DNA from: Pseudorhodoferax soli
GTDB taxonomy: Bacteria; Pseudomonadota; Gammaproteobacteria; Burkholderiales; Burkholderiaceae_C
DNA: 64,000 nt
Reading direction: 5' to 3'
Assembly (NCBI RefSeq): GCF_003337555.1
Contig: NZ_QPJK01000001.1
Span: 620,001 to 684,000 of the forward strand
In this document: positions 19,601 through 22,395 of the stretch, in pieces
Layout: every line of letters starts with the position of its first letter
How positions within the stretch are numbered: the stretch's first letter is position 1
The notes under the pieces: model-generated
The model's input: the letters and a program-made list of their open reading frames with translations, nothing else
What the model was told of the DNA's origin: nothing
Databases searched by the model: none
Translations under genes and position numbers: made by a program

Positions 19601-19615
19601 GTGACGGACGGTCAC
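19601..19615. other. 15-bp palindrome at the 3' end of the GspE-like gene
   Basis: GTGAC-GGACG-GTCAC, perfect 5-bp arms, overlaps the GspE stop codon and lies about 127 bp upstream of the tctB start. It may be an operator for tctBA or chance in GC-rich DNA. Confidence 0.3.
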
Positions 19616-21390
19616 GCCGTCGGCGGCGCCTCCAGTGGTGGCGTGGCGCTGAGCACTTCGGCCATGGTGGTCAGCCCTTCGGCCACGCGCAGCGCCCCGG
19701 CCAGGCGCAGCGGCCGCATGCCGTCCACCAGCGCCTGGCGGCGCAATGCCGAGGGCTGGCCGCCGCCCTGGGCGAGCTTGTCCTTGAAGCTCTCGCTGAC
19801 GGTCAGCAGCTCGTACAGACCCATGCGGCCCATGAAGCCGGTCATGCGGCACTCCAGGCAGCCGACTGGCTTGTACGGCGTGCAGGCGCCGTTGATGCGC
19901 CAGGGCTGGATCACGCGGTTCAGCGTCTCGGCCGTGGTGCTTTCGTCGGGCGCGCGGCAGTGCCGGCACAGCACGCGCACCAGGCGCTGCGCAAGCACGC
20001 CCAGCACAGTGGCGTTGAGCAGGTAGGCCGGCACGCCCAGTTCCATGAGCCGGGTCAGCGCGGCCGGGGCGTCGTTGGTGTGCAGCGTGGAGAACACCAA
20101 GTGGCCTGTCAGCGCCGACTGGATCGCCATCTCGGCCGTCTGCAGGTCGCGGATCTCGCCGACCATGATCACGTCCGGATCCTGGCGCATGAGCGCACGC
20201 AGGCCCTCGGCGAAATCGAAGTCCAGCTGCGGCTGCACCTGGGTCTGGTTGAAGGCCGGCTCGATCATTTCGATCGGGTCTTCGATGGTGCTGACGTTGA
20301 GCGCCTCGGTCGCCACGCGCTTGAGCGTGGAGTACAGCGTGGTGGTCTTGCCCGAACCGGTGGGCCCAGTGACCAGGACCACGCCATGCGGCTGGCGCAC
20401 CAGCGCCTCCCAGCGTGTGGCGTCGTGCGGCGAGAAGCCCAGCGCGTCCAGATCCTTGACGGCCGTGTCGGGGTCGAAGATGCGCATCACCATCTTCTCG
20501 CCGAAGGCCGTGGGCAGCGTGGACAGGCGCATCTCGATCTCGTCGCCCCGGGGGTTGCGCGTCTTGATGCGGCCGTCCTGCGGCCGGCGCTTCTCCACCA
20601 CGTCCATGCGGCCCAGCAGCTTGACCCGGGCCACCACGGCATTCATGACGCCCATGGGCATCTGGTAGACCGGGTGCAGCACGCCGTCGATGCGGAAACG
20701 GATCACGCCCTGCTCGCGCCGCGGCTCCAGGTGGATGTCGCTGGCACGCTGGTTGAAGGCGTATTGCCAGAGCCAGTCCACCAGCTGCACCACGCCTTGG
20801 TCGTTGGCGTCCAGCGTCTTGTTGGATTTGCCGAGCTCGACGAGCTGCTCGAAGCTGGCCAACCCGGCGCTGCCGCCGGCCTTCTGCGCAGCGCGCACCG
20901 ATCTGGCCAGCGCAAAGAACTCGGCCGTGTAGCGCTGGATGTCCAGCGGATTGGCGACCACGCGGCGCACGCTGCGGCGCGACTGGCGCTCGACCTCGGG
21001 CACCCAGTCGCTGACGAAGGGCTCGGCCGTGGCCACGGTGACCTCTGTCGCGCCCACCTGCAGGGGCAACACCTTGTGGCGCTCGGCGTAGACGGCGCTC
21101 ATGGTGTCGGCGACCTTGCCCACATCGACCTTGAGCGGGTCGATGCGCTGGTACGGCAGGCCGGCGCGGCCGGCCAGCCATTCGGCCAGCATCTCGATGT
21201 CCAGCGGCTTGCCATCGCGCGCCCGCGCCATGGCCACGCTGGCCAGCCGCACCAGGGCCGGCTGGGCACTCTCGGCCTGGGCGCAGCGCGCCACAGTACG
21301 GCGGTGTTCGTCGGCGGAGATCACGCCGTCGGCGGCCAGCCAGTCGACCAGCAGGCGCCAGGTCAGCGGGCCGACGTAGGGGGCGGTCAT
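19612..21390 (-). CDS. GspE/PilB-family secretion ATPase
   Basis: 592-residue hexameric ATPase of the type II secretion / type IV pilus class. An N-terminal GspE-N-like domain precedes the ATPase core: Walker A GPTGSGKTTTLYST, Asp box and Walker B MVGEIRD, His box HTNDAPAALTRL, and two zinc-type Cys pairs (CRHC and CLEC). The ATG at 21390 has GGAGG upstream and overlaps the stop of a micro-ORF as ATGA. No other gsp or pil genes are near, so its machine is encoded elsewhere or it acts as an orphan ATPase. GspE and PilB cannot be separated confidently. Confidence 0.87.
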   Translation of the reverse strand: MTAPYVGPLTWRLLVDWLAADGVISADEHRRTVARCAQAESAQPALVRLASVAMARARDGKPLDIEMLAEWLAGRAGLPYQRIDPLKVDVGKVADTMSAVYAERHKVLPLQVGATEVTVATAEPFVSDWVPEVERQSRRSVRRVVANPLDIQRYTAEFFALARSVRAAQKAGGSAGLASFEQLVELGKSNKTLDANDQGVVQLVDWLWQYAFNQRASDIHLEPRREQGVIRFRIDGVLHPVYQMPMGVMNAVVARVKLLGRMDVVEKRRPQDGRIKTRNPRGDEIEMRLSTLPTAFGEKMVMRIFDPDTAVKDLDALGFSPHDATRWEALVRQPHGVVLVTGPTGSGKTTTLYSTLKRVATEALNVSTIEDPIEMIEPAFNQTQVQPQLDFDFAEGLRALMRQDPDVIMVGEIRDLQTAEMAIQSALTGHLVFSTLHTNDAPAALTRLMELGVPAYLLNATVLGVLAQRLVRVLCRHCRAPDESTTAETLNRVIQPWRINGACTPYKPVGCLECRMTGFMGRMGLYELLTVSESFKDKLAQGGGQPSALRRQALVDGMRPLRLAGALRVAEGLTTMAEVLSATPPLEAPPTA

Positions 21391-21503
21391 GGGGCCTCCT
21401 CCGCTCCATCGCGCGAGAACACGGGCCGCGCTGGTCGGTGGCCGGCGCGCCTCGCGCTGGTGTCGATCCCCGCGCTGCGGGGCGCCTCGCCGCGTGCGCT
21501 CAT
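21387..21503 (-). CDS. Micro-ORF 2 of the tandem repeat (38 codons)
   Basis: Short frame of 38 codons starting MSARGEAPRSAG and ending DGAEEAP. Its ATG overlaps the stop of micro-ORF 1 (ATGA), and its own stop overlaps the GspE-like ATG (ATGA). It is Arg/Ala/Gly/Pro-rich with no recognisable domain. It differs from micro-ORF 1 at five residues. Whether the peptide is made is unknown; the arrangement would let ribosomes pass from gene to gene. Confidence 0.35.
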   Translation of the reverse strand: MSARGEAPRSAGIDTSARRAGHRPARPVFSRDGAEEAP

Positions 21504-21613
21504 GGCGCCACCTCCGCGCCATCGCACGAGAACACAGGCCGCGCTGGTCGGTGGCCGGCGCCCCTCGCGCTGGCGTCGATCCCCGCGCTGCGGGGCCCCT
21601 CGCCGCGTGCGCT
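21388..21613. repeat. Two tandem 113-bp direct repeats at an ATGA junction
   Basis: Units 21388-21500 and 21501-21613 align without gaps and differ at 8 of 113 positions by my count. Both contain the unchanged hairpin CCCCGC-GCT-GCGGGG (21468-21482 and 21581-21595). Each unit begins with CAT on the plus strand, so on the minus strand each boundary is an ATGA stop/start overlap. The unit length of 113 (38 codons minus one base) is what keeps this overlap at each junction. Confidence 0.93.
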
Positions 21614-21616
21614 CAT
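21500..21616 (-). CDS. Micro-ORF 1 of the tandem repeat (38 codons)
   Basis: First copy in transcription order: 38 codons starting MSARGEGPRSAG and ending DGAEVAP. Its ATG overlaps the stop of the spermidine-synthase-like gene (ATGA), and its stop overlaps the start of micro-ORF 2. Of eight base differences between copies, five change the amino acid, which gives little sign of selection on the peptide. Could be a coupling spacer, a real peptide or a non-coding repeat. Confidence 0.35.
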   Translation of the reverse strand: MSARGEGPRSAGIDASARGAGHRPARPVFSCDGAEVAP

Positions 21617-22395
21617 GGCGCCACCGGGCTGAACACGCGCAGCCACTTGCGCGCCGGCAGGCCCCAGCGCGATTCGATGTCGGCCGCGCGGGCGAGCAGG
21701 TCGGCGCGCTCGGGCCGGCTGGCCTCGCGCTGGGCCAGCACCACGGTGTTGCCCTCGCGCGTGGGCCGGAAGGCCCAGACCGCGGACTCACCGAAGGCCG
21801 CCGCAATGCGCTCCAGGCTCGCCTCGTAGCGCGACGAGCGGCCGAACAGGTTGACCGTCATGGCGCCGTCCTCGGTCAGCAGGCGGCGGCAGTCGGCGTA
21901 GAAGTCGGCGCTGTCCAGCACGGGAGAAGCCGCCTCGTGGTCGTAGAGGTCGACCTGCAGCGCATCGACGGTGCCGTGCAGCGTGGCGTCCAGCACCGCC
22001 AGGGCGGCGTCGGCAAGGCGCACGTGCAGCCGCGCATCGTCCGGCGGCAGCTTGAACCAGCCGCGGCAGGCCGCGATCACCTGCGGGTTCAGCTCGATCA
22101 CCGTGGTGCGCATGCGCAGCTTCTTGTGGCAGAACTTGGTCAGCGCGCCGGCGCCCAGGCCCAACTGCATGGCGTGGCGCTTGGTGATGCCCTCGGCGGG
22201 CACGAACAGCAGCCAGGCCATCATGCGCTGCACGTACTCGAGCTCGATGTCGTAGGGTTTGTCGATCAGCATCGAGCCCTGCACCCATTCGGTGCCCAAG
22301 TGCAGGGTGCGCACCACGCCATCGTCGGCGAACTGCACCTCGGGCAGCGCGGGCTGGGCGCGTCGTGCAGGGGCGGATTTAGCGGCTTTGGTCAT
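21613..22395 (-). CDS. Spermidine-synthase-like SAM-binding protein
   Basis: 260-residue class I methyltransferase-fold protein of the SpeE-like group. It has LGLGAGALTKF (nucleotide loop), VIELNP (acidic loop) and DLYDHEA. True spermidine synthases have an N-terminal beta domain and a longer gatekeeper region; this protein has only a short N-terminus, so propylamine transfer is not certain. Its start overlaps the end of the TatD gene by 17 nt and its stop overlaps micro-ORF 1, so it belongs to a tightly coupled operon. Confidence 0.8.
   Translation of the reverse strand: MTKAAKSAPARRAQPALPEVQFADDGVVRTLHLGTEWVQGSMLIDKPYDIELEYVQRMMAWLLFVPAEGITKRHAMQLGLGAGALTKFCHKKLRMRTTVIELNPQVIAACRGWFKLPPDDARLHVRLADAALAVLDATLHGTVDALQVDLYDHEAASPVLDSADFYADCRRLLTEDGAMTVNLFGRSSRYEASLERIAAAFGESAVWAFRPTREGNTVVLAQREASRPERADLLARAADIESRWGLPARKWLRVFSPVAP

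Follow-up and report, generated by a model that had tools for sequence, protein, structure and literature searches.

In a window of 64,000 nucleotides from Pseudorhodoferax soli, by which we mean the whole stretch of DNA that was analysed, two head-to-tail copies of a short repeat occupy the junction between a SpeE-like gene and a type IV pilus ATPase gene. We consider it likely that these units belong to a non-autonomous, chromosomal and structured repeat that inserts at host stop codons, and that its coupled form preserves the translation chain of the operon it enters. At the sequence level, this explanation is backed by the insertion site, the agreement of the two flanks, the conservation of frame and length, and the covariation of both helices.

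All features of the locus are encoded on the minus strand. The SpeE-like gene (22395 to 21613), the terminal codons of which are the putative insertion target, ends in a TGA that overlaps the ATG of the first micro-ORF at 21616-21614. Unit 1 (21500..21616) and unit 2 (21387..21503) each comprise a 38-codon relay micro-ORF with its stop and carry ATGA at their 5' and 3' ends, and the pilus ATPase gene (19612..21390) starts at 21390 in overlap with the end of micro-ORF 2. All three junctions, i.e. SpeE-like/micro-ORF 1, micro-ORF 1/micro-ORF 2 and micro-ORF 2/pilus ATPase, consequently consist of ATGA, and the two units form a direct repeat of 113 nt each with eight differences, five of which alter the peptide. 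These coordinates agree with an earlier note on the window, which had described tandem 113-bp repeats at an operon junction, three ATGA overlaps and 38-codon frames, and its count of five non-synonymous changes among eight was confirmed as well. Of the neighbours it had named, the SpeE-like gene was retained, though its scores fall below curated cut-offs (PF01564, 20.1 vs 22.9; PRK04457, 188 vs 304), while the GspE-like assignment of the downstream gene was replaced, as the type IV pilus assembly ATPase TfpB (NF053534) scored best with 862.5 bits at a cut-off of 850. Neither micro-ORF peptide matched any Pfam or NCBIfam family up to an E value of 0.01, and a search of positions 21300-21700 against 4227 Rfam models returned zero matches up to an E value of 1, so that no known RNA family was recognised in the unit.

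A DNA search of the own genome with the window stretch yielded ten matches including the query itself, two of them weak and later unconfirmed, and the same type of search in 60 relatives gave matches, often short, in 17 genomes. A covariance model that includes the ATGA ends (R1) was built from 21 units and located 13 units at nine loci of the own genome. Counting the own genome in each case, R1 matched 31 of 299 genomes of the family (E up to 1e-3), 70 of 399 genomes of the order (1e-4) and 7 of 321 genomes of the class, with stricter filters applied in the searches of larger genome sets. The core-only model R2, constructed without the ends and without the flanking helices, matched 75 of 399 genomes of the order (E up to 1e-3) and recovered 12 units in the own genome, every one at a locus known from R1, with one known locus missed. 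Loci were fetched for the stronger matches among those listed, and the resulting core-only sample of 70 loci is biased toward genomes rich in copies. The presence of the element is patchy across genomes and the GC content of the matches ranges from 0.55 to 0.81. Plasmids returned zero matches for the window copy or for copies L003, L132 and L013, phages zero matches for the two queries tried, and viral contigs none with one exact core pattern, so that carriage by plasmids or phages is unsupported for these queries. A core pattern was found in five contigs, two of which (L037 and L038) match over only about 22-25 nt. The family is a dispersed, chromosomal repeat.

Analysis of the reading frames was based on 215 of 221 unique R1 matches, the remaining six being shorter than 100 nt. 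DTGA is present at both ends in 162 of the 215 full-length units, a sample that overstates coupling because R1 contains the ATGA ends. Among these double-overlap units, 137 have a length of 2 mod 3 (107, 110, 113, 116, 119 or 122 nt), in 134 reading from the first start leads to a stop at the TGA within the following overlap, and in 159 the relay frame is free of stops, compared with 106 for the only usable control frame. Clustering at 0.8 preserved the pattern, with lengths of 2 mod 3 in 90 of 106 clusters and an open frame in 103 (relay) vs 67 (control). The possibility that the open frame arose by chance in GC-rich DNA, raised in the earlier note as a chance frame in a neutral repeat, draws on the fact that the control frame is open in 106 of 162 units too, and a single open unit therefore says little. 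Against 159 open relay frames, and with six lengths, all 2 mod 3, accounting for 137 of 162 units, chance is a very improbable origin, and as a full account of the open frame it is refuted by these counts, which at the same time uphold the proposal that length and frame keep the coupling.

The core-only sample, in which 91 of 101 copies were evaluable and ten were cut by contig or locus ends, gave a more mixed picture. DTGA was present at the 5' end in 50 of 91 copies and at both ends in 29, and among the latter 23 had a length of 2 mod 3 and 27 an open relay frame, vs 17 with an open control frame. Exact coupling was found in only 22 of 91 copies, and 41 showed no 5' start-stop overlap. Copies without frame or ATGA junctions, which the earlier note had regarded as evidence against its reading, thus exist in part, namely the 41 copies without a 5' overlap beside the 22 coupled ones, and its view of the repeat as an intrinsic coupling module is not supported, nor is its idea that added copies tune the output of the downstream gene. 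In the own genome seven of nine loci are coupled; L005 is uncoupled and has no downstream start, and the 108-nt copy with a TTGA start at L052:1501-1628 contains a stop-less relay frame that runs in frame into the next gene. With respect to the peptide, no single frame is used for the conserved core, as all three occur (69, 34 and 9 of 122 coupled clusters at 0.9 clustering, 10 not placed). Together with the lack of a family match for the window peptides, this rules out a conserved peptide and bears out the suggestion that selection does not act on it; what selection seems to maintain is rather the nucleic acid itself and an open frame of the right length.

Comparison with relatives revealed that the SpeE-like/pilus junction is unit-free in all five sister genomes compared, which points to a precise insertion at ATGA. 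The junction of G002 reads GGTGGCGCCATGAC, and the window reads GGTGGCGCCATGA, followed by the units and then by CCCCATGACC. As the empty site of G002 contains GGTGGCGCCATGA, the same letters as 5' of unit 1, the left flank most likely predates the element. Further pairs of filled and empty partners were obtained for L053, L006, L007 and L008, and at L053 the repeated stretch is TCGAATGA. In a test with 116 single-copy units (57 clusters), agreement between the two flanks exceeded that of permuted flanks in the eight positions preceding the TGA, -1 to -8 (z 2.2 to 6.5); z was 1.5 at -9, and there was no excess farther out. The confinement of this agreement to -1 to -8 suggests that insertion duplicates a stretch of about 8 nt adjoining the stop codon, and part of the agreement could instead reflect that the same internal segments pair with either flank.

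The position of the host stop, defined as the stop of a frame of at least 100 codons, was then expressed as an offset from the core, leaving out 16 and 22 array followers as well as units without an anchor, near a locus end, or duplicated. In the R1 sample the first units of arrays had a host stop at offset -3 in 123 of 177 cases, a count partly built in because R1 contains the TGA letters; a further 14 of the 177 had it at -11. The corresponding counts for the core-only sample were 13 of 41 and 8 of 41. Random positions at the same loci had such a stop in 96 of 900 cases, with at most seven per offset and no peak. Stop identity also differed between the two registers: near -3 all 145 of 145 stops are TGA, and near -11 there are 13 TAG, 10 TGA and 5 TAA. 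Of the 41 core-only copies without a 5' DTGA, 14 come after another unit, 16 lie no more than 30 nt beyond a long frame's stop codon, and 11 belong to neither group. Since only 22 of 91 copies are exactly coupled and many lie behind stops without a start, these positions indicate that the element targets stop codons and that coupling is its operon-compatible form.

Several junctions were observed in more than one genome. One host junction, located after the GAGGTGATCGAATGA gene end, holds the element in four genomes (L053, L066, L149 and L249) with differing bodies and with internal segments whose fit to GATCGAA is full or nearly so; it represents either a recurrent insertion target or a very old insertion. 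At another shared junction, three genomes (L065, L068 and L076) have elements whose bodies differ, and two relatives (L289 and L290) have an empty site; the product encoded upstream is presumably thymidylate synthase-like. At L005 and its orthologues L251, L257 and L264 the element lies between the stop codon and a T run, and the empty sister L267 reads GGCTGAGTTTTTTG; the element possibly lies inside a terminator there. In G437, seven copies on separate contigs (L161-L167) share some 16 nt of near-identical left flank, which gives the impression that a larger unit or an array end has spread within the genome.

Copy number varies as well. Matching loci contain four units in G000 (L003) vs one in G004 (L010), and six units in G005 (L009) vs one in G004 (L026). 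The six units of the G005 array are spaced 114 nt apart with GTGA, a spacing with which the frame runs through the whole array. Copies near contig ends were noted at L304, L329, L356, L363 and L375-L378; arrays may therefore be points at which assemblies break, and the copy numbers given here may be too low. The search for the unit in own and sister genomes, as the earlier note had suggested, thus returned 13 units at nine own loci and five empty sister junctions out of five, and its proposal of a mobile or amplifiable unit is sustained by these empty sites together with the unequal copy numbers. A selfish or neutral repeat tolerated at gene ends, in which frame and overlaps are the survivors of purifying selection on the operon and no regulatory role exists, is evenly poised in our judgement and compatible with the explanation favoured above. 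It agrees with the 41 of 91 evaluable core-only copies that lack a 5' start-stop overlap and sit at sharply fixed stop offsets, with the unconserved peptide, and with copy numbers that are unequal between matching loci.

Consensus folding of 21 units with RNAalifold predicted a hairpin and two helices, designated P1 and P2; neither this fold nor the pairing with the target features in the earlier note. P1 is the outer helix, in which the target flank pairs with an internal segment and which contains the start codon, and in P2 the next Shine-Dalgarno region pairs with another internal segment. In unit 1 the conserved hairpin CCCCGC / GCGGGG is located at 21581..21595 and the 5' strand of P1, i.e. 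target letters reaching into the start codon and also present in the empty site of G002, at 21615..21622. The complementary internal segment lies at 21557..21564, where the window copy forms a P1 of only six pairs with the palindromic GGCGCC. The P2 partner GGCCACC is found at 21550..21556 and the Shine-Dalgarno region GGAGGTGGC at 21507..21515, at the end of unit 1 before micro-ORF 2. In unit 2 the Shine-Dalgarno sequence GGAGG precedes the pilus ATPase at 21398..21402, and P2 is weaker here because the base after GGAGG is A, resulting in an A-A mismatch. Thermodynamic folding of unit 1 was no better than that of shuffled sequences (z -0.35), so that no extra stability was found.

Across the 21 units, 95.5% of the cells pair vs 85.5% in shuffled alignments and 30-48% in slid controls, and 53 double-change cells were counted vs 15.7 after shuffling. 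An alignment-free test of P1 with 202 of 215 units (78 clusters) measured the longest stem that a unit's upstream flank can form with its own segment. The mean was 7.06 vs 5.63 for permuted pairs (sd 0.13), and for this flank none of 2000 permutations reached the observed value. The downstream flank also exceeded the permutation, less strongly (6.59 vs 5.79). In the core-only set, for which 95 of 101 copies could be used, P1 was recovered with z 8.3 in copies with a start-stop overlap (34 clusters) and z 5.3 in those without (27 clusters). For P2, counted in units with both motifs present (160 and 57), the tested pair was Watson-Crick in 142 of 160 units of the R1 sample, with wobble in a further eight, and in the core-only set the count was 52 of 57; start-less core-only copies showed 28 of 30 G-C and two G-G, and the pair is hence uninformative there. 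This covarying pairing of the next Shine-Dalgarno region is what a tolerated neutral repeat alone leaves unexplained. A riboregulator, in which a P1/P2 switch closes the micro-ORF start or the downstream Shine-Dalgarno sequence unless the upstream gene is translated, would make use of the start codon inside P1 and the Shine-Dalgarno region inside P2. We nevertheless regard it as unlikely in view of the P1 pairing in start-less copies (z 5.3), the patchy presence among genomes and the lack of an Rfam match. Since P1 is kept in copies without a start codon, sequestration of the start was rejected as its general purpose.

Within the same genome, copies with similar bodies differ in their internal segments, each of which fits its own flank, as in G304 L065 (GGCAGTAT with ATACTGCC) and G620 L199 (GAAGGCAT with ATGCCTTC). 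The fit of segment and flank is poor in, e.g., G304 L140 and G441 L214. Judged by eye, the segments of L006 and L007 fit the target in the empty sister better than the present target, and that of L008 fits the present target better than the empty-sister target. The match may be made at insertion, the segment either selecting the target or being rewritten from it, or may arise through later adaptation. One junction is occupied in four of the five genomes compared within a genus. Flank and segment vary together there, and the body of the G135 copy most resembles other copies from the genome it belongs to (difflib ratio 0.93). The simple view that one copy was passed on vertically at this junction was therefore not upheld, and independent insertion or concerted evolution is possible. 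One reading of these observations, which we rate as possible rather than probable, is a guide-directed mini-element that chooses or copies its target by base pairing and whose relay ORF keeps operons intact. Here, an internal segment of 8 nt would be the complement of those 8 nt by the host stop that insertion duplicates, and the guide would either scan for stop-codon targets or be rewritten from the target with each insertion.

For the explanation that we favour, the mobility mechanism, the transit and re-initiation of ribosomes, the opening of the Shine-Dalgarno region and a near-neutral downstream effect are what we infer from these data, as follows. The repeat would insert at a host stop codon with duplication of about 8 nt, and at targets that consist of a start-stop overlap (ATGA or GTGA), the new copy would preserve the translation chain of the operon. 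A ribosome finishing at the upstream stop would re-initiate at the overlapping start and read a relay frame of about 36-39 codons, the peptide being irrelevant. Reading of this frame would open the helix covering the next Shine-Dalgarno region, and the ribosome would stop at the next overlap, which is the start of either the true downstream gene or another unit. Because a coupled unit is 3n+2 nt long with an overlap at both ends, added units would leave the chain intact.

Among known systems, mycobacterial MIRUs offer a close parallel. They are described as short repetitive units, apparently mobile, that insert at start codons (PMC12548453, citing Supply et al. 1997), and the ORF inside them is coupled to the target gene with -4 nt spacing (PMC12548453). 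Their copy number differs among isolates, and at one M. tuberculosis repeat locus the transcript level fell as the repeat length decreased (PMC2734929). Like these, the present element has a small ORF with 4-nt overlaps to its neighbours (both window units, 134 of 162 units of the R1 sample and 22 of 91 core-only copies) and occupies start-stop sites of which relatives have an empty version (the window locus, L053, L006, L007 and L008). Unlike them, it resides outside mycobacteria in another phylum, and it possesses a covarying fold, a target-complementary segment and a second register without a start codon, a comparison for which MIRUs are represented by their description. We thus suggest that the element works like a MIRU as described, and do not class it as one.

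The beta-proteobacterial repeat element (BRE) of Hot et al. 2011, the function of which was left open, consists of units of 75-91 bp with no or few bases between them and a mean GC content of 69% (PMC3110155). The same description gives further similarities to the present family, namely occurrence in betaproteobacteria including Comamonadaceae, an exclusively chromosomal and mostly intergenic location, variable tandem copies and GC richness. The period here is mostly 107-122, compared with 75-91 bp, and the conserved portion falls below this period once the variable stretch is left out. A micro-ORF, stop-codon targeting and target pairing, all three found here, do not feature in the BRE account as far as we could consult it (PMC3110155). 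Judged by description, not by sequence, the family may be BRE; the genus of G449, tried as a route to this identity, gave matches in one of six genomes and brought no support for it. Enterobacterial RU elements are likewise small mobile repeats able to carry open frames, and the portions of PMC2759123 and PMC2229807 available to us describe no insertion at start-stop overlaps and no target pairing, unlike the case here. Termination-reinitiation at overlapping gene pairs, as presented in PMC6728339 and PMC10666635, is the same coupling mechanism as proposed here; there it concerns ordinary genes, whereas here an inserted repeat would supply the overlap. In the open-access literature, the matches listed included no stop-codon-targeted or start-stop-coupled betaproteobacterial repeats, with BRE, MIRU and RU elements being nearest. 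Compared with these, the target-matched segment, the two stop-codon registers and the conservation of a frame without conservation of its peptide appear to be new.

With these results, a short repeat that enters operons at start-stop overlaps and leaves the chain unbroken, as has been proposed for MIRUs, would be on record from a second phylum. The many loci, the empty sites and the covarying fold make both the coupling idea and the mode of movement testable, and the target-matched segment provides a concrete clue to the mechanism of mobility. Should the family prove to be BRE, that element would gain an anatomy.
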